The notes under the pieces were generated by a model, which saw only the letters and a program-made list of their open reading frames with translations, did not search any database and was not told where the DNA came from. A stretch of DNA of 64,000 nucleotides from an uncultured Bacteroidales bacterium (lineage in GTDB: Bacteria > Bacteroidota > Bacteroidia > Bacteroidales > CAIWKO01), in the NCBI GenBank assembly GCA_903913285.1, contig CAIWKO010000023.1, forward strand, positions 1 to 64,000. The letters run 5' to 3'. Shown here one piece after another: positions 4,156-62,340 of the stretch. The position numbers were made by a program, and so were the translations under genes. How positions within the stretch are numbered: the stretch's first letter is position 1; the number at the start of each line of letters is the position of its first letter.

Positions 4156-5544
4156 TTATTTTGCCATCAATGCTTCAATATCTTCTACGGTTTTCGGAAT
4201 AGATTTACCCAATACCCGATGACCGGTTTCTGTTACCAAAACATCATCTTCAATGCGGATACCACCAAAGCCTAAATATTCGGACACTTTATTGTAGTCG
4301 ATAAACTCGGTGAACTTGTTTTCAGATTTCCACAAATTATATAATTCAGGAACAAAATAAATTCCCGGTTCCACCGTCAGAATAAAACCCGGTTGCAACC
4401 TTCTGCCAAGACGCAGATAGGCTGTTCCGAATTGATCGATAGGCCGAACTTCGTCATCATATCCGACATAGATCTGGCCGATGTCTTCCATGTCGTGTAC
4501 ATCCAACCCCATCATGTGGCCCAAGCCATGAGGCAGAAACATGGCATGAGCGCCTTGTTTGATGGCAGCATCTGTATCGCCTTTCATCAAGCCTAGCTTT
4601 TTTAAGCCTTCTGTTATTACTTTGCACGAAAGCAAATGCACATCCTGATATTTTACGCCCGGCTTGATGGCTTCAATGGCCGTCATTTGTGAATCCAGCA
4701 CTATTTGATAGATCTCCTTTTGCTTTTTGGAGAATTTTCCGTTCACAGGAACCGTACGGGTATGATCTGTTGCATAATGGTTTGGCGTTTCAAATCCTGC
4801 ATCCATCACCAGCATATCACCGTCGTTCATCAGGTTACCATGAGCATGCCCGTGGAGAATTTCTCCCCTGACCGATAATATTGTCGGGAATGACAAGGTT
4901 CCGTTTTTGCCCAAAGCAATACCTTCCATGGCACCGGCCACTTCATATTCGTATTTTCCGGGTTTCACCATTTGTATGCCTTTGGTAAACATTTCGTATG
5001 CCGTATCAATTCCTTTTTCAATTTCGGCAACTTCTTCGGGGGTTTTTACCGAGCGCAGTTTTATGACTGCCAGCATCAGTTCCATTGAGGCAGAATCTTT
5101 CACTTTATCGATCGAAATACCCAGAACTTTTGACAAGAATATTTTACTGTTTGGATTATAAGGAGGCAAGAAATGAATATTCTTGTTTTGTTTTACGGCA
5201 TCCTTCACATAAGCTTCAAATTTCGAAAATACTTCGGTAGAGGTCAATCCAAAGTTCTTGGCTTTGTCGCGCAACAGGGGTAAAGGGCCTGTCCAGATCA
5301 CGTCTTCGATCTCAACATCATCGCCGAATATTATTTCTTTATCGTTGTCCAGATCAATAATGGCGGCCATCCCAGGTTCGTCAATTCCGAAAAAATAGAG
5401 GAACGAACTGTCCTGACGGAAATGATAGATGTTTTGCGGATAATTCATGGGCAATTCGGTATTGCCGACAAAGATCAAAACACCGCTTTTTATGAGTTTT
5501 TTTAAGTTTTTTCTTCTTTCGATATACACATTTGCTGGAAACAT
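4156..5544 (-). CDS. pepP: Xaa-Pro aminopeptidase (M24B)
   Basis: 462 residues, the usual length for PepP, which removes an N-terminal residue preceding proline, in the cytoplasm. It has an N-terminal AMP_N domain (about 1-130) and a pita-bread catalytic domain. The dinuclear metal ligands are visible in order: Asp in MDAGFETPNHY, Asp in ATDHTRTVP, His in PHGLGHMMGLDVHD, Glu in TVEPGIYF and Glu in IRIEDDVLV. The 3' neighbour on the same strand (5650-6945) is a second, shorter M24B peptidase, so this is a tandem paralogue pair. The two are 105 bp apart and the 5650-6945 gene is the upstream member. Confidence 0.93.
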   Translation of the reverse strand: MFPANVYIERRKNLKKLIKSGVLIFVGNTELPMNYPQNIYHFRQDSSFLYFFGIDEPGMAAIIDLDNDKEIIFGDDVEIEDVIWTGPLPLLRDKAKNFGLTSTEVFSKFEAYVKDAVKQNKNIHFLPPYNPNSKIFLSKVLGISIDKVKDSASMELMLAVIKLRSVKTPEEVAEIEKGIDTAYEMFTKGIQMVKPGKYEYEVAGAMEGIALGKNGTLSFPTILSVRGEILHGHAHGNLMNDGDMLVMDAGFETPNHYATDHTRTVPVNGKFSKKQKEIYQIVLDSQMTAIEAIKPGVKYQDVHLLSCKVITEGLKKLGLMKGDTDAAIKQGAHAMFLPHGLGHMMGLDVHDMEDIGQIYVGYDDEVRPIDQFGTAYLRLGRRLQPGFILTVEPGIYFVPELYNLWKSENKFTEFIDYNKVSEYLGFGGIRIEDDVLVTETGHRVLGKSIPKTVEDIEALMAK

Positions 5545-5579: not shown

Positions 5580-5650
5580 CAATATAATAATTAGCCATTA
5601 GCCAAGAGCCATAAGCCATAATTTCCGGCTTTTGGCTTCCGGCTTCCGAC
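5580..5650. repeat. Low-complexity intergenic tract (AGCCAT / GGCTTCCGG phrases)
   Basis: Between the two aminopeptidases, imperfect iterations of TAGCCATTAGCC, AAGAGCCATAAGCC and GGCTTCCGGCTTCCG form a phrase-like repeat. A related tract lies at 14320-14395. No gene or clear hairpin terminator is visible here. Confidence 0.6.
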
Positions 5651-6945
5651 TATTTTTTCCCCTTCATCAGGGCTTCAATTTCTTCAACTTCACGCGGTAT
5701 GTTTTTCATCAGGTCGACAGGGCCTTTCTTTGTTACCAGTATATCATTTTCAATCCGGATACCGATCTCTTCTTCTTTAATGTAAAGCCCCGGTTCGCAA
5801 CTCAGCACCATACCCGGTTTCAAAACTACCTGACGGTTGCCGACATCGTGCACATCCAAACCGATAAAATGTGAGTTGCCGTGCATATAATACTTAAAAT
5901 ACAAAGGATTGTCGGGATCCTGATTTTTCACATCTTTTTCGGTAAACAAGCCAAGTCCTATCATTTCTTTTTCCAAAATGAGTGTAACTTCCTTATTGAT
6001 CTTTTCGATGGTGGTTCCCGGAACAATAAGCTGAGTGGCTTTTTTCATAGCTCTCAACACGGCATTGTAGCAATCTTTTTGCCGTTTATTGAATTTCCCG
6101 TTGGCCGGAATTGTACGTGTTATATCTGAAGCATAATTGCCATATTCGGCACCGAAATCGATCAGAACCAGTTCTCCGTTCTTTATGCGAACATCATTTT
6201 TGATGTAATGCAACACACAGCCGTTCACACCCGATGCAACGATCGGCAGAAACGAATGAGCCCCGACACCGTTGCGAATAAATTCGTAGGCAATTTCGGC
6301 TTCAACTTCATATTCCATCATGCCCGGCCTGACTTTTTTTAAGATATTCCGGAATGCTTTTTCAGCAATATCGCAGGCAATTTGCATCATCTCTATCTCT
6401 TCGGGTTCTTTGCACAGACGAAATTCTGTTATCAGCGGGTTGATTCGTTCAAATTTATGGGTAGGATATTCCGTTTTCATCCGATTGGCAAAACGCAGTT
6501 CACGGGAGCTAACTTCAGTCGAAAAACGTGCATCTTCATGCAGGTTCAGGTAAATATTTTCGGAACGGAGTATCAGGTCCTTCAAAGTATCTTCAAAGCT
6601 ATCGAGCCATTTAACGGTTTTAACGCCTGAAACCTTTGCGGCTTGTTCAAGACTGTATTTATGTCCGTACCAGGTAACCATACTGTCGCTGGTTTGAACC
6701 GTGAATACGATTTCGCGCAAAGCTTCAGTTGGATGATCGGGGCATAAACATAAAACACATTTCTCCTGATCGAGTCCGGACAAGTAATACATATCAGAGC
6801 TTTGGCGGTAGGGGTGATACTGGTCGCCGTTTCGGTGATATTCGTCGTTAGATAAAATAATGGCCACCGAATTCGGTTTTAATTTCTTTAAAAGTTTTTG
6901 ACGATTGCGGATAAAAAACTCCGGGTTGATAGATTTATAGCGCAT
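5650..6945 (-). CDS. pepP: Xaa-Pro aminopeptidase (M24B), second paralogue
   Basis: 431 residues with AMP_N domain (about 1-130) and M24B catalytic domain. Metal ligands are seen in IDFGAEYGNYASDITRT (two Asp), GNSHFIGLDVHD (His), SCEPGLYI (Glu) and IRIENDILVT (Glu), so the enzyme looks active. It cleaves X-Pro N-termini. The start is the ATG whose complement lies at 6943-6945 (MRYKSINPEFF). It is divergent from sdhC, with about 140 bp between that contain the sdh promoter on the other strand. It may be co-transcribed with the aminopeptidase downstream at 4156-5544. Confidence 0.92.
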   Translation of the reverse strand: MRYKSINPEFFIRNRQKLLKKLKPNSVAIILSNDEYHRNGDQYHPYRQSSDMYYLSGLDQEKCVLCLCPDHPTEALREIVFTVQTSDSMVTWYGHKYSLEQAAKVSGVKTVKWLDSFEDTLKDLILRSENIYLNLHEDARFSTEVSSRELRFANRMKTEYPTHKFERINPLITEFRLCKEPEEIEMMQIACDIAEKAFRNILKKVRPGMMEYEVEAEIAYEFIRNGVGAHSFLPIVASGVNGCVLHYIKNDVRIKNGELVLIDFGAEYGNYASDITRTIPANGKFNKRQKDCYNAVLRAMKKATQLIVPGTTIEKINKEVTLILEKEMIGLGLFTEKDVKNQDPDNPLYFKYYMHGNSHFIGLDVHDVGNRQVVLKPGMVLSCEPGLYIKEEEIGIRIENDILVTKKGPVDLMKNIPREVEEIEALMKGKK

Positions 6946-7791: not shown

Positions 7792-9732
7792 ATGACAACA
7801 TTAAATTCAAAAATTCCACAAGGACCTTTAGCTGAAAAATGGACCACATACAAATCGACTTGTAAATTAGTTAACCCGTCGAACAAACGGAAAATAGATA
7901 TTATAGTAGTGGGAACCGGACTTGCCGGCGCTTCGGCTGCTGCTTCACTTGGCGAATTGGGCTATAACGTGAAAGTATTTTGCTATCAGGACAGTCCGCG
8001 CAGGGCTCACAGCATAGCTGCCCAGGGCGGTATCAACGCTGCCAAGAACTATCAGAACGACGGCGACAGCGTTTATCGTTTGTTCTACGATACCATCAAA
8101 GGAGGCGACTATCGTGCCCGCGAAGCCAACGTGTATCGTTTGGCTGAGGTGAGCAACGGCATTATCGACCAATGCGTGGCTCAGGGTGTACCTTTTGCAC
8201 GCGACTATGGCGGATTGTTGGACAATCGTTCGTTTGGCGGTGCTCAGGTGTCGCGTACTTTTTATGCCCGTGGCCAAACAGGACAACAGTTATTGTTGGG
8301 AGCCTACAGCGCTTTGAGTCGTCAGATAAAGAAGGGAAGTGTTAAGTTATACAACCGCCGCGATATGCTCGATGTGGTGGTGGTCGACGGAAAAGCCCGC
8401 GGAATTATTGTCAGAAACCTGGTGAACGGACAAATAGAAAAATATTTCGGTCATGCTGTTGTGCTTGCAACGGGTGGTTATGGAAACGTGTATTTTCTTT
8501 CGACCAATGCCATGGGTTCGAATGCAACTCCTTTGTGGCGTGCCTACAAAAAAGGCGCTTTTTTCAGCAATCCCTGTTTCACTCAGATACATCCCACCTG
8601 CATTCCCGTTCACGGCGATTTTCAATCGAAACTAACGTTGATGAGCGAAAGCTTGCGCAACGACGGCAGGATATGGGTTCCGAAAAAGCTGGAAGATGTT
8701 GCCAAACTTCGCAAACGTGAAATAAAACCTTCGGATATTGCGGAAGAAGACCGCGATTATTATCTCGAACGCCGCTACCCGGCTTTCGGCAATCTGGTGC
8801 CGCGCGATGTGGCTTCGCGTGCCGCCAAAGAACGCTGCGATGCAGGTTTTGGCGTTAGTCATTCGGGTTTGGCTGTGTTTCTCGATTTCAAAGAATCTAT
8901 CGAACGCCTCGGCAAAAATGTTATTGAAGAACGCTACGGAAATTTGTTCCAGATGTATGAACAGATCATCAACGAAAATCCGTACGAAACCCCAATGATG
9001 ATATACCCTGCCGTGCATTATACCATGGGCGGCATTTGGGTTGATTACGATTTGATGACCACCATCCCCGGTTTGTTTGCCATAGGTGAATGCAATTTCT
9101 CCGACCATGGTGCCAACCGCCTCGGCGCTTCGGCACTGATGCAGGGTCTGGCCGACGGTTATTTTGTGTTGCCCTACACCATCGGCAACTATCTTTCGGC
9201 CGAAATTCATACCAAACGCATCGCCACCGATGCTCCCGAATTTGTTCAGGCCGAAAAAGATATCACCGAACAATTAGAGAAACTTAAAAATATTAAGGGC
9301 AAACAGTCGGTCGATTCTATCCATAAAAAGTTCGGCAAACTGATGTGGGAATATTGCGGCATGAGTCGTACGGAAGAAAGCCTGAAGAAAGGCTTGTCGC
9401 TGGTTCCTGAAATTAAGAAAGAATTCTGGACCGACTTGTTTATTCCCGGCGAAATGAACGAATATAATCCCGAAATAGAAAAAGCAAGTCGTGTGGCCGA
9501 TTTTATTGAACTGGGCGAACTGATTATGAAAGATGCTCTGCAACGCAAAGAATCGTGCGGAGGCCATTTCCGCGAAGAAATGCAAACCGAAGACGGCGAA
9601 GCCAAACGCGACGACGAAAACTTTGCTTTTGTTTCGGCATGGGAATTTAAAGGTGAAGACAAAGAACCCGAAATGCACAAAGAACAACTTACGTTTGAAG
9701 TGGCTAAACCTTCGCAGAGAAGTTACAAGTAA
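7792..9732 (+). CDS. sdhA: Succinate dehydrogenase / fumarate reductase flavoprotein subunit
   Basis: 646 residues, as expected for the b558-type enzyme. It oxidises succinate to fumarate (or the reverse) using covalent FAD. Visible are the Rossmann motif [15 protein letters not shown] (about 44-58), the FAD-attachment motif HSIAAQGG with His73, and the substrate-site region with CFTQIHPTC and [26 protein letters not shown]. The codon composition is GC-rich relative to intergenic DNA, typical of a highly expressed core gene here. It lies in the sdhCAB operon. Confidence 0.96.
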
Positions 9733-9766
9733 CAGGTAAAAGGTAACAAGTAACAGGTAAGAGTAA
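9724..9766. repeat. Low-complexity GTAACAGGTAA tract
   Basis: Short imperfect iterations of ACAAGTAACAGGTAAAAGGTA occupy the sdhA-sdhB gap, beginning in the last codons of sdhA. Similar tracts recur at 10603-10675 and, on the other strand, near 62590-62622. Confidence 0.6.
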
Positions 9767-10934: not shown

Positions 10935-11561
10935 TCACTGCACCATGATATGTTCTGCCGTGAGCCAGGGTGTCATTCCTTTGGTTGTTACGGCGCAAAC
11001 CCGCACCCATATTTTGGTTCCTTGTTCAAGATTTTTGAATGCGGTGCGGGCTTTCGAGGTTGCGCGAATGAACTTCCAGGCATCGTCGTTGTCGGGTTCT
11101 GTTTCGCCGATATAAATCATCCAGATATAACTGAGCGCTCTTGGAATGGCTTTGCAGTATGCTAAAACTTCGCCCGGGAAAGGTCCTTTTTTCAACCAGA
11201 ATTCACGATATAATATTGGGGCTATATCTCCTTTGGTCAACGGAAATCCTGAACTCAGCATTATGGCTTCGTCTCCAAAGGCTACATTATAAATGTACGC
11301 TCCAAGCATCACCGTATTCAATACCAAATCTGCTCTTGCCATTTTCATGGCGAGTGTCTGTGGTGGACCTCCGTTTTGGGCAGCCATATATTTCAGTTCA
11401 AGATCGTCGGCTTTCATTGCCAAACTACTCAGGGTTGGTTTGGGTACAGGAAAATACGCGTTGCCTGTCATTTTCGATATTACAAAGCGAACCGTGTCGA
11501 TAAGTTCCGGAGTTTTGTAGTATTTATAATTCTTTACGGGTTTTCTGGATCTTTTTGCCAT
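10935..11561 (-). CDS. Conserved hypothetical protein with possible fibronectin III-like C-terminus
   Basis: 208 residues with a very basic N-terminus (MAKRSRKPVKNYKYYKTPE) and no signal peptide. The last 90 residues (containing YIWMIYIGETEPDNDDAWKFI and GTKIWVRVCAVTTKGMTPW) resemble the strand pattern of a fibronectin type III fold, which is a weak inference. No catalytic motif is recognised. The gene stands alone between the sdh operon and a repeat array, transcribed toward the sdh terminator. Coding character is supported by its length and by GC-biased third positions unlike the AT-rich surroundings. Confidence 0.65.
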   Translation of the reverse strand: MAKRSRKPVKNYKYYKTPELIDTVRFVISKMTGNAYFPVPKPTLSSLAMKADDLELKYMAAQNGGPPQTLAMKMARADLVLNTVMLGAYIYNVAFGDEAIMLSSGFPLTKGDIAPILYREFWLKKGPFPGEVLAYCKAIPRALSYIWMIYIGETEPDNDDAWKFIRATSKARTAFKNLEQGTKIWVRVCAVTTKGMTPWLTAEHIMVQ

Positions 11562-11828
11562 AACCTTTGGTGTTAAAGGGTTAATTATACAAAGTTACTA
11601 CTGATAAACGTGTAAAGTCAAGCATTTATGAGTCCGGTTTGTACTATCTTCCGACTATCTTCCGCAAGACCCTTTTCCTTCCTTTGTAGTTCCGTACTTT
11701 CATTTGTAAAAATAAATCAAAAATAACTTTAACCTCACAGGTTTACGTATTAATAACTCAAAAACCCTTATCAATAGTATTGAAATTGATATTAAAATTG
11801 TTCGTTCCTTTCATAAACCTTAACGATG
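11562..11828. other. Intergenic DNA without recognisable gene
   Basis: AT-rich spacer between the hypothetical gene and the 42-bp repeat array. I see no coding frame, tRNA or hairpin that I can support. Confidence 0.5.
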
Positions 11829-12200
11829 CCATATAGAACTTCCCTAATTCAACATTGGAACGTTACATTCCCATATTGATTTTCCGAACTTCTACATTGG
11901 AACGATACATTCCCATATTGATTTTCCGAAGTTCTATAGTGGAACGTTACGTTCCCATATTGCTTTTCCGAAGTTCTATATTGGAACGTTACGTTCCCAT
12001 ATTGCTTTTCCGAAGTTCTATATTGGAACGTTACATTCCCATATTGCTTTTCCGAACTTCTACATTGGAACGTTACATTCCCATATTGATTTTCCGAACT
12101 TCTACATTGGAACGTTACGTTTCCATATTGATTTTCCGAAACTCTAATTGGATTCGTGACATTTCCATATAGCTTTTCCGAAACTCTAATTGGATTCAAC
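11829..12200. repeat. Tandem array, nine copies of a 42-bp unit
   Basis: The phrase CCATAT recurs at exactly 42-bp spacing: 11829, 11871, 11913, 11955, 11997, 12039, 12081, 12123 and 12165. The core of the unit reads CCATATTGATTTTCCGAAC, then TTCTACATTGGAACGTTACATTC. Two copies (at 11941 and 11983) contain the perfect inverted repeat GGAACGT-T-ACGTTCC, and others have it with one mismatch. The outer copies are the most diverged. Because 42 is divisible by three, frames stay open on both strands (about 105 and 116 codons), but they have no start context or family resemblance, so I do not call genes. There are no spacers, so this is not CRISPR. Confidence 0.9.
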
Positions 12201-12426
12201 AGATATCATCATGGCGTTGTAAAGCTTAGACATTGAAATGTACAGGTTTGTGCATGTTGCGATAGATTATTTAATAGAAATGTAAAAGATAAAGAAGAAT
12301 CTCTGATGGAAGATAATTATTCAATGATTTTTAGTATTAATGGTATTGATGAATAGTAAAGATCAAAAAATGGATAATAAAAAAATTATTTATGAAATAA
12401 ATACACTGAGAAAATTATTTATTGTT

Positions 12427-12434: not shown

Positions 12435-12468
12435 TAATGACCTTAGGATGTTAAATTAATAATTGAGT

Positions 12469-13356
12469 ATGAAAAGACTTCTATTCACAATTTTTCTTTC
12501 ATTTGGTCTTGTAAATTTGTTTGCCCAGCAATGGGCACCTATTGGCACCAAATGGTACTACACCGATATTGATTGGGGATTTCCCGGTGGACATTATCCC
12601 CATGAGATTGAATCTACCGGCGATACCGTAATAAACGGTCAAGCCTGCAGAATAATACAAGGATATTGCGAATGTGGCTTTTTCGGGAACAAAACGTTCA
12701 TGTATTCCGATACCAACCGGATATATTTGTACAACGATTCATTGAATAGTTTTCATGTGTTTTATGATTTCACCAAAGTTCAGGGCGAAACATGGACTAT
12801 TGTACCTCCAACTCCGGCTGATTCGTTCAAAGTTCTTGTTGACACAATTTATACAAAAGTAATTTGTGGCAATAGCTATACCCTTCAACACATCAGAAAT
12901 AATGATTTAGGTATGATTTTATGGGAATTTTATGGCGATGTGGTAAAAGGAATCGGTAATATTACCGGATGTTTGTTCCCTGTATCTGCTGTCTGTGATC
13001 CTCCTTCAGGTTCATTACGATGTTTCGAAAATTCAGATACCCTGATAAAATTTGATACCATTCCTTGCGATACCATTTATTATACATGGATGTCGGTAAA
13101 AGAGAACCTTGTTGAATCATTTTTTATCTCCCCCAACCCCTTCACCACCTCCGCCCAAATCACCCTCAACCAAACCTACCAAACCGTCGCCCTCGAAGTT
13201 TACGACATCCAGGGCAAACTGCTTTTGCAAAACCGCTATGCCGCCTGCAAGCAAATTGAACTAAAGCGCGGGAATTTGAACGAAGGTTTATACTTCTTGA
13301 AATTAACGATAGATGGGAACAGGGAGGAGACGAGGAAAATTATTATAAATGAATAA
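12469..13356 (+). CDS. Secreted protein with T9SS C-terminal sorting domain
   Basis: 295 residues from ATG 12469 (a TTG at 12463 would add two residues). Signal peptide: KRLLFTIFLSFGLVNLFAQ. The middle region (about 20-215) has many Cys and Asp-Thr pairs but no family I recognise. The last 80 residues form a type A T9SS sorting domain: ISPNPFTTSAQITL, LEVYDIQGKLL, then LNEGLYFLKLTIDG and a terminal KIIINE. It should cross the outer membrane by T9SS and be anchored at the surface or released. From about 13125 the coding strand becomes strikingly C-rich (many CCC, ACC and CTC codons), unlike the body of the gene. The next gene starts 3 bp downstream. Confidence 0.85.
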   Translation: MKRLLFTIFLSFGLVNLFAQQWAPIGTKWYYTDIDWGFPGGHYPHEIESTGDTVINGQACRIIQGYCECGFFGNKTFMYSDTNRIYLYNDSLNSFHVFYDFTKVQGETWTIVPPTPADSFKVLVDTIYTKVICGNSYTLQHIRNNDLGMILWEFYGDVVKGIGNITGCLFPVSAVCDPPSGSLRCFENSDTLIKFDTIPCDTIYYTWMSVKENLVESFFISPNPFTTSAQITLNQTYQTVALEVYDIQGKLLLQNRYAACKQIELKRGNLNEGLYFLKLTIDGNREETRKIIINE

Positions 13357-14317: not shown

Positions 14318-14396
14318 AGAAGTCATGGCTCTTGGCTCATGGCTCATGGTTAATCAAATCACTGATTCATGGCTTATGGCTCATGGCTCATGGCTA
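14318..14396. repeat. Low-complexity GGCTCATGG tract
   Basis: Imperfect iterations of ATGGCTCATGGCTC in the gap after the T9SS pair, resembling the tract at 5580-5650. Confidence 0.65.
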
Positions 14397-58109: not shown

Positions 58110-58239
58110 AAATCTCCTCCTTCTTTAAATTAAGCAGGAGTCATCAGCACAAAAGGCGGTTAAAGGCGAACTCCATCACCATATTACTTCATGCAAAAAT
58201 AGTAATTAATTTTAATTGCGGATTGAAGGCACAGCTTTT

Positions 58240-60359: not shown

Positions 60360-60493
60360 TGTTAATTATTATTTTTCCCTACTCATTTGGCTTTTCAGTT
60401 CCGCCCCGTTTTTTCAAATGGTTTCTGGTCTCCATTTAATTGTACTTCAAAAATAACTAAATTTCAATTCTAAAGAAATAAAATAAAATAAAA

Positions 60494-60557: not shown

Positions 60558-61538
60558 TTAACTCCCAAGAGTTCCATTATCAATTGCCTTCAACTCCGAA
60601 ACCACTTCCGTCGTTTCTCCGGCCTTAATATCAAACTTAATAACCACATCATCGTATGTCGGCTTTCTCAAAATCGCCGTATAACTGCCTTCCTTCAAAT
60701 CCACCAAAATTCCGCCTTCATCGTCCGTGTTCAGCACATAATCCGTACCTTCTATCGTCAGTTCCGCATCCTCTATCCAACTGTCGTCTATCCCAAAATC
60801 CTTTGCCGTAAAATCCAGTTGTCCCATTTTTAATGCCAGTTGTTCAGCCAGTTTCTGTGCTTTTTCCTCTTTAGTCGTTCCGTCATGCCGTATTCTTTTC
60901 AGCAGTGTGGTTATTGTATATTCCTTCACTCTCACATTTCCCGTAAAAATTGCTTTCCCTGCCTTACACAAATTCAGTGTAATACCCCACATAGTATCAA
61001 ACTTAACATGATTCTCGCTCACAGCCGTTTCTTTATCGGCTTCCATCTGATTTTGTTTCTGATTCAGCAGCCTAACCTGCTCAGCTTTTGCTTTCATGGC
61101 ATCCCATTGCACTGAGCTCCATCCCTGATCTTCCAGTGCATCATTATTATCATCAATATTTTTATTCAGCACTGTCATCGCCAAAGCCAAACCTTCCATA
61201 TTTTTAGTCGAAATGCATGTTCTAACATCGCTCGTGCCCATCTTTTTATAGTCCATATTCAAATTTGTGCCTGCATTCTCAGCAAAAATATCAATATCGT
61301 TCAAATCACTCCTTAAACTTATAGCGGTAGTAATCAACAACTTTGTAATAGTAGCTTTTTGAGTAACATAAAACTTAGTAGCCACAATTCCTTCACAAAC
61401 CTCTATCGCCGCTATTGTATCATCTTCAAAAGTGCCCAGATATCTTTTATACTTGTTCGTAAATTTTGTTTTATCAGAATGAAAACTGTCGATAACAAAT
61501 CTCGACAAAACGGTTTTATCTTCAATTTTTGGATGCAT
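60558..61538 (-). CDS. Hypothetical protein, possible carboxypeptidase-regulatory-like C-terminus
   Basis: 326 residues without a signal peptide. N-terminal half is helix-rich (about 1-200) with no family I can name. About residues 245-315 (AELTIEGTDYVLNTDDEGGILVDLKEGSYTAILRKPTYDDVVIKFDIKAGETTEV) look like a beta-sandwich of the carboxypeptidase-regulatory type. The gene is next to a T9SS protein and a tandem repeat array. Confidence 0.6.
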   Translation of the reverse strand: MHPKIEDKTVLSRFVIDSFHSDKTKFTNKYKRYLGTFEDDTIAAIEVCEGIVATKFYVTQKATITKLLITTAISLRSDLNDIDIFAENAGTNLNMDYKKMGTSDVRTCISTKNMEGLALAMTVLNKNIDDNNDALEDQGWSSVQWDAMKAKAEQVRLLNQKQNQMEADKETAVSENHVKFDTMWGITLNLCKAGKAIFTGNVRVKEYTITTLLKRIRHDGTTKEEKAQKLAEQLALKMGQLDFTAKDFGIDDSWIEDAELTIEGTDYVLNTDDEGGILVDLKEGSYTAILRKPTYDDVVIKFDIKAGETTEVVSELKAIDNGTLGS

Positions 61539-61862: not shown

Positions 61863-62340
61863 TATAGAATGCAACTTACCAAATATAGTGGGCAATTCAT
61901 CAAATATAGTGGGAAACTAGCCAAACATAGCGGGCAATTCGTCAAACATAGTGGGCAATCGTTCAAATATAGCGGGCAACTCGATCAATATAGCGGGCAA
62001 TTACAAAAATATAGTGGGCAATCGGACAAATATAGCGGGCAATTGAGTAAATATAGCGGGCAATTACAAAAATATAGCGGGCAACTCGATCAATATAGCG
62101 GGCAATTACAAAAATATAGTGGGCAATTGATTAAATATAGCGGGCAATTGAGTAAATATAGCAGGCAATTGCACAAATATAGCGGGAAACTCAAAAATAT
62201 AGTGGGCAATTGGACAAATATAGCGGGCAATTGAGTAAATATAGCGGGCAATTGAACAAATATAGCGGGAAACTCAAAAATATAGCGGGCAATTGGTCAA
62301 ATATAGCGGGCAATTACTCAAATATAGAGGGCAACGCGTC
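61863..62340. repeat. Tandem array, about 22 copies of a 21-bp unit
   Basis: TATAG (or CATAG) recurs every 21 bp from 61884 to 62323: 22 copies, plus a degenerate copy at 61863. The unit is close to AAATATAGCGGGCAATTGATC. Two intervals are 20 bp (62178 to 62198 and 62261 to 62281), both in the variant GGGAAACTCAAAAATATAG. In one frame it reads as the heptapeptide KYSGQLx, but the 20-bp units break the frame, so I do not call a gene. There are no spacers, so it is not CRISPR. Confidence 0.9.

Follow-up and report, generated by a model that had tools for sequence, protein, structure and literature searches.

Tandem arrays with a 21-bp step occupy a recurring slot upstream of small helical-plus-Fn3 genes

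We found that a tandem array fills a recurring slot upstream of a small gene that encodes a helical half and an Fn3 half, across a class of bacteria (apparently Bacteroidia, judging by the T9SS genes) and in two genomes outside it. At this slot, the period and position of the array persist while the sequence of its unit can be replaced. Regulatory DNA is normally recognised by its sequence, whereas this slot is recognisable mainly by repeat length and place, and ordinary motif searches would therefore miss it. With this slot it can be tested directly whether selection can act on DNA geometry alone, and the shared upstream array groups gene families that are expanded and unannotated.

The array in the window and its neighbours

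The array lies in a 64,000-nucleotide stretch from an uncultured Bacteroidales bacterium, analysed here as a whole and called the window, where it sits between two divergent genes. The features of the window that bear on the argument are the following.

10935–11561, minus strand: helical-Fn3 family gene, 208 aa, with a helical N-terminal half and an Fn3 C-terminal half; left of the array.
11562–11847, minus strand: gap of 286 bp between the array and the start codon of the family gene.
11590–11621, minus strand: promoter-like TTG-N21-TAACTTTG, ending 28 bp before the ATG of the family gene.
11848–12194, no strand: 42-bp tandem array, 8.3 copies without indels, with degraded edge half-copies to roughly 11821–12213 by eye.
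11941–11955, no strand: perfect GGAACGTTACGTTCC palindrome with 7-bp arms and a 1-bp centre.
11983–11997, no strand: second perfect GGAACGTTACGTTCC palindrome.
12463–13356, plus strand: gene with a T9SS sorting tail (PF18962); right of the array.
60558–61538, minus strand: second-family gene, 326 aa, with an array starting 325–340 bp upstream.
61863–62335, no strand: second array, with a 21/42/63-bp period and a unit that differs from that of the first.

Tandem Repeats Finder (TRF) scored the array at 496, with 92% matches and 0% indels. The initial annotation had described nine copies of constant length that diverge at the edges. Nine copies are reached once partial copies are counted, TRF itself giving 8.3, and both the constant unit length and the edge divergence were borne out: adjacent copies were 91% alike and copies seven apart 69%. 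Copies are thus most like their neighbours and least alike at a distance of seven, the usual trace of local homogenisation. The two 21-bp halves of the 42-bp consensus are not direct copies of one another.

A search of related genomes for the unit had been suggested as a check; when it was run by BLAST, none of the 58 related genomes, 3 of them from the same genus, contained a match. In the same genome, we found a sister array on contig C6, with about 7 copies at 78% identity plus short pieces. Weak homology between the two extends a little past the array, and the family gene is absent from the 12-kb stretch around the C6 array. The array at the unrelated locus L029:4784–5074 has a 12-mer in common with the window array (GTTCGGAAAATC by eye), which may reflect chance or exchange. 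The window array had no match in Rfam at the gathering threshold. An exact 16-mer of the unit occurred in 20 viral contigs with a single match in each, a chance-like pattern. The array is intergenic and probably noncoding.

The array had also been placed upstream of T9SS cargo genes. The right-hand gene and the next two genes of the plus strand (13360 and 14489) do carry T9SS sorting tails, but it is the gene on the other side, 10935–11561, that accompanies such arrays repeatedly across genomes. This copy had no match in Pfam, NCBIfam or PHROG. Over the C-terminal half, the profile of the family aligns with structurally characterised Fn3 domains, and a predicted model of the 208-aa protein backed the Fn3 half and suggested, with moderate confidence, three longer N-terminal helices. 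The family proteins that were examined showed no DNA-binding domain; their N-terminal half has no assigned fold. The own genome holds 13 matches to the gene, counting the gene itself. A scan of genome contigs of named organisms with the window protein found no relative, whereas a contig scan with L085 as the query gave two records of uncultured bacteria, from the Kiruna and AlinenLipids bins. Viral contigs, for the one query tried, contained no family member.

The promoter-like site in the gap has what we take to be the Bacteroidetes-type promoter consensus. In several family members at other loci (L099, L106, L109, L119, L130, L134, L137, L143 and others), the ATG is directly preceded, as judged by eye, by a small GC-rich hairpin and then an A-rich stretch. 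Elsewhere in the window are a fluoride riboswitch aptamer at 58128–58189 on the minus strand (RF01734, Rfam), two adjacent genes at 4156–5544 and 5650–6945 on the minus strand that by eye resemble M24 aminopeptidase P paralogues, and a collagen-like repeat coding region at 17–387 with nested periods of 9, 18, 27, 36 and 135 (TRF).

Arrays upstream of two gene families

The first sign of a wider pattern came from the genus, in which family copies were mostly preceded by an array, every locus with its own unit. An array lay upstream, no farther than about 350 bp from the tblastn start, in 9 of 11 own-genome copies and 8 of 10 sister-genome copies with 5′ ends; L074 and L075 lacked 5′ ends, L082 gave no hit, and the sister-genome matches numbered 11 in G001 and 10 in G003, of which 11 were fetched. 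No array was that near in the first copy of L036 or in L067, L076 and L078.

When 295 genomes of the class were searched, the family turned up in 51. Set A comprised the 30 best loci of this search, which are short. In set A, an array lay within 700 bp upstream of 20 of 27 family genes, compared with 4 of 30 downstream; other open reading frames (ORFs) had an array upstream in 12 of 43 cases and downstream in 8 of 34, in part through the same arrays. Set B comprised 40 further loci among the matches listed, taken in roughly score order with some skipped, whose array content was unseen beforehand. These loci carry 41 family genes, one of which (L155) has too little upstream sequence. In set B, 29 of 40 family genes had an array in the 700 bp before them, as opposed to 4 of 39 with one downstream, and 25 of the 29 upstream arrays had a period of 21n ± 1. 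The counts for other ORFs were 14 of 162 upstream and 14 of 136 downstream. Fisher tests on set B gave 7e-16 and 1e-8; these values are too small, since some genomes are common to both sets and set B includes paralogues, which makes its loci non-independent.

The association was also seen when the comparison was restricted to intergenic regions that, leaving the array aside, measured at least 250 bp: in set B, arrays occurred in 18 of 25 such regions upstream of family genes and in 3 of 31 not beside one. In the own-genome sample, regions of at least 250 bp contained an array in 4 of 4 cases upstream of family genes and in 9 of 47 not beside one. When non-redundant upstream regions were pooled, discovery loci included, 66 of 90 had a 21n array with a score of at least 100 within 1 kb, and 24 had no array at this threshold; TRF misses degraded arrays, so 66 may be a low count. 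These upstream 21n arrays had a median length of 265 bp and a median gap of 243 bp to the start codon. Array score cut-offs were 60 for the counts in sets A and B, 100 for the pooled, intergenic and own-genome counts, and 150 for the dyad and autocorrelation analyses. Sides shorter than 700 bp, ORFs mainly in arrays and near-identical upstream regions were left out of the counts. Gene calls were mechanical ORFs, family start codons were chosen by us and the genomes are mostly drafts.

We define the arrays of this slot by a period of 21n ± 1 and a distance of no more than about 700 bp on the 5′ side of a family gene; the window array, with a period of 42 bp and a position 286 bp upstream of 10935–11561, is one of them. 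Arrays as such form a wider class: the own-genome sample contained 22 of them (those of the window and L006 included), and only 4 array-bearing regions of at least 250 bp lie 5′ of a family gene. Single cases in that sample lie beside other small genes, with the array upstream in L032 and L035 and downstream in L037 and L045.

In a search across the phylum, 15 of 296 genomes gave a match, several of them through Fn3 alone. Among its full-length hits outside the own genome, 6 of 7 had a 21n array upstream (L174, L175, L176, L177, L187 and L089, but not L104), and L174, L175 and L187 come from the two genomes outside the class. The L187 array is weak, with 3.3 copies, and the L176 array, at a distance of 596 bp, has 2.1 copies of an 85-bp unit. 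Two partial hits of the same search had no array.

The second array of the window lies upstream of a different gene. Its 326-aa protein was mostly helical in a low-confidence model, which was too poor for use (mean pLDDT 41.5), and had a weak PEGA-like C terminus below the Pfam cut-off. Matches to this second family occurred in 7 of 198 class genomes. Of its 12 loci, tblastn placed 11, and 9 of these 11 had a 21n array upstream, the window's own counted. We detected no sequence similarity between the two array-preceded families. An Rfam DUF805 RNA motif (RF03081) lies directly 3′ of the second-family gene, at 60371–60440 on the minus strand.

Period, sequence turnover and self-complementarity of the unit

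To describe the period, we removed duplicate consensus sequences, which reduced 86 arrays to 81, and computed autocorrelations. Mean excess identity was 0.34, 0.40 and 0.34 at lags of 21, 42 and 63 bp and did not exceed 0.04 at any other lag up to 69, with a dip at 10–11. The 81 arrays were chosen for periods near 21n, so the multiples themselves were selected for, but the sharpness of the peaks and the missing 7-bp signal were not. A less biased count comes from 20 own-genome stretches (374 kb) chosen without regard to arrays: 18 arrays were near 21n (15 of them within ±1) and 3 were not, although only 38% of the allowed periods fall in the near-21n class. Set B, which had been chosen for the family, had 34 near-21n arrays and 5 of other periods. 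B-DNA has 10.5 bp per turn, and two turns of the helix are the natural reading of a 21-bp period. Among the 81 arrays, 14 of the 17 periods that are not exactly 21n are not multiples of 3, about 11 being expected without a frame preference, which indicates that the reading frame is unprotected. The initial annotation had viewed the array as a helix-phased noncoding site; the peaks at exactly 21, 42 and 63 bp and the unprotected frame support this view but fall short of proving it. With no peak at lag 7 or 14 among the 81 arrays, an origin from heptamers was rejected. Tandem repeats of 7 bp do occur in the window (9725–9760 and 14323–14395) as a class apart from the 21-bp arrays, and longer ones elsewhere in the genome (L039:4108–4204 and L030:461–583).

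The units themselves are mostly private. Among the 86 arrays, 11 of 3,655 pairs had a 12-mer in common, compared with 1.95 in shuffles, and some of these pairs were orthologues or came from one locus. In the orthologues L081 and L083, the coding sequences are 96% identical and the distal flanks 93%, whereas the arrays are 60% alike; in the paralogues L044 and L072, the corresponding values are 82%, 67% and 42%. Random sequences put through the same aligner gave a mean of 45% (38–53%). In the second family, L159 and L166 have 86% identical coding sequences and unrelated arrays with flanks at 58–60%, and the flanks of the L036 pairs are also diverged (50–66%); these pairs say less on turnover because their flanks have diverged as well. 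Units have stayed similar in L079/L080 (91%) and L117/L118 (81%), which suggests that turnover is episodic, though it can be fast. One of the few units shared by unrelated loci is that of L006:10031–10505 and L032:13834–14048, which by eye have GGAAAGGGTTC and a subsequent ACGA part in common.

The palindrome that had been noted in the window array is present but unevenly kept. GGAACGTTACGTTCC is perfect in only two copies, has one mismatch in four more and two in one, and is absent within two mismatches from the last full copy; 0.07 matches were expected in the shuffled window. The proposal that it is a conserved operator did not hold up, since only two copies are perfect and arrays of this kind show a weak enrichment of single short dyads (p ≤ 0.05 in 10 of 81; combined p 4e-4), and we rejected a palindromic operator array with the dyad kept in every copy. 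The consensus as a whole is weakly self-complementary, with 26 of 42 positions alike between it and its reverse complement (shuffled P 0.012). Across arrays, single-strand folding exceeded column-permuted controls on both strands (mean z −1.08 sense and −1.03 antisense; n = 51; p 3e-6 and 5e-6), and self-complementarity under a cruder control had a z of −1.93 over 80 arrays, neither control keeping dinucleotides. The second array of the window had self-complementarity below its controls. Folding did not differ between sense and antisense (p 0.81), and this equal enrichment suggests DNA rather than RNA as the level at which the structure matters; a strand-specific RNA structure is unsupported.

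Promoter-like motifs in the sense direction occurred upstream of the array in 9 of 65 cases, compared with 2.1 in shuffles, and antisense in 5 of 65. The Bacteroidetes promoter motif was not enriched in the sense direction in the gap between array and gene (2 of 65, compared with 1.9 in shuffles). Placement is thus inconsistent, as the motif lies between array and gene in the window and, in the minority of cases with a sense motif elsewhere, more often upstream of the array than in the gap; transcription of the array can be neither affirmed nor denied from these motifs. Predicted curvature, calculated from wedge angles, was raised by repetition over shuffled DNA, as with in-phase repeats; selection for curvature of the unit is unsupported (real units against permuted ones, p 0.10), one window array being less and the other more curved than its permuted controls. 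The GC content and strand skew of the arrays showed no significant difference.

Candidate explanations and known systems

We tentatively read the array as an upstream cis-element that may have been selected for two-turn phasing and weak self-complementarity rather than for sequence, a reading of function that goes beyond the architecture described above. The slot would then be the cis-element of the downstream gene, and the selected feature would be weakly self-complementary sites that recur along the same helix face for about 270 bp. A dimeric protein, or one with little sequence preference, could load side by side on these sites and so set gene expression. Slippage and unequal crossing-over would homogenise and replace the unit, leaving a mostly private sequence at each locus, and copy number could tune the effect.

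One possible alternative is that the arrays are passive minisatellites, functionless products of a mutational bias that makes 21-bp arrays in permissive intergenic DNA, the family genes merely having long upstream regions. Consistent with this, arrays also adjoin other genes and lie between convergent genes (9 of 47 own-genome regions of at least 250 bp), and their sequence is often not conserved. Against it stand the difference that persists in set B with at least 250 bp of residual intergenic DNA (18 of 25 against 3 of 31), the asymmetry between the 5′ and 3′ sides of family genes or the same slot in a second family without detected sequence similarity, and we regard the passive explanation as unlikely, though a serious contender. 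We consider it improbable that the arrays are locus-specific operators, each bound by its own sequence-specific regulator or by the gene product and co-evolving with the binder into a private unit. Such co-evolution would account for the mostly private units (11 of 3,655 pairs with a common 12-mer) and fits self-complementarity and helical phasing, but the arrays of L081 and L083 are 60% alike beside coding DNA that is 96% identical, and the family proteins examined have no DNA-binding domain, although their N-terminal fold is unassigned. A little less probable again is a transcribed leader, in which the array would lie in a long 5′ untranslated region and act as a chain of RNA hairpins. The equal structure on both strands (p 0.81) and the promoter-like site between array and gene in the window argue against it; the sense motifs upstream of the array (9 of 65 against 2.1, with 2 of 65 against 1.9 in the gap) argue for it, as do the small hairpins and A-rich stretches before the ATG in several gaps, but antisense motifs at 5 of 65 make the sense excess small.

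We think it very unlikely that the array is a mobile element or a miniature element (MITE) with an internal minisatellite, like the BrickBuilt or PgRS elements discussed below. Repeat sizes (22–23 and 41 nt) and intergenic setting are similar, the weak homology of the C6 sister array extends slightly past the array, and some imperfect inverted pairs frame both arrays. However, the best inverted pair was reached in shuffled flanks in 47 of 60 cases for the window and 9 of 60 for C6, the units are mostly private, and the paralogues L044 and L072 have related flanks on both sides of unrelated arrays. Membership in a known mobile element, which had been named as evidence against a protein-binding site, is therefore not indicated by the window flanks. 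A MITE of the BrickBuilt or PgRS type was rejected both on its terminal inverted repeats, the framing pairs being no better than those of shuffled flanks, and on its dispersal at many sites, given one sister array in the genome and 11 of 3,655 pairs with a common 12-mer. Around the C6 array, the imperfect 22-nt inverted pair at L006:5487–5508 and 6148–6169 is not above chance (9 of 60 shuffles), and a hairpin close to the end of the FHA gene overlaps its right arm. We give almost no credence to translation of the array as a 14-residue repeat protein. An open frame runs through the array on both strands and 4 of 34 set B arrays lie inside ORFs, but stop-free frames are expected of any repeated short unit, and none of the 22 own-genome arrays lies in an ORF, a weak count because ORFs mainly in arrays were dropped first. 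The window's 42 bp keeps the frame, whereas 14 of 17 non-21n periods of related arrays break it, as expected without a frame preference, and a protein-coding repeat gene was rejected for this lack of frame protection.

In the literature covered (titles and the starts of abstracts, with few subscription journals), we found no description of arrays tied to such gene families, and the passages of PMC4060949 that were covered do not mention 21 bp. In Porphyromonas gingivalis, 23-nt BrickBuilt and 41-nt PgRS/MITE464 minisatellites lie within MITEs that have IS5-like ends, and in E. coli the BrickBuilt leader and tail showed promoter activity (PMC4596501). Similar to these elements, the arrays described here are intergenic and spacerless, with imperfect copies and a unit near one or two 21-bp steps, and several BrickBuilt elements adjoin genes with T9SS (PorSS) tails, as the window array does (PMC4596501). 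BrickBuilt and PgRS elements are described there as dispersed sequence families with IS5-like terminal inverted repeats, in BrickBuilt with a leader and a tail (PMC4596501). By contrast, the arrays here have mostly private units and terminal repeats not above chance, and lie 5′ of specific gene families. The TAACTGA heptamer arrays of Beggiatoaceae are also abundant short intergenic tandem repeats, proposed to be regulatory (PMC4679880). Unlike those heptamers, the arrays here have no 7- or 14-bp periodicity, and 7-bp arrays occur separately in this genome.

It is possible, and we hold it only slightly more loosely than the cis-element reading itself, that these arrays are the bacterial equivalent of satellite DNA, a class of upstream cis-elements that seems to belong to Bacteroidota and that would be selected for repeat length (two turns), position and extent rather than sequence, and that would mark several expanded families of small proteins with helical and beta domains. 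Eukaryotic satellite DNA keeps its repeat length while its sequence is turned over by concerted evolution, and the arrays likewise keep their repeat length through sequence turnover. Unlike eukaryotic satellites, they are about 270 bp long, lie upstream of single genes and follow a two-turn rather than a nucleosome step.
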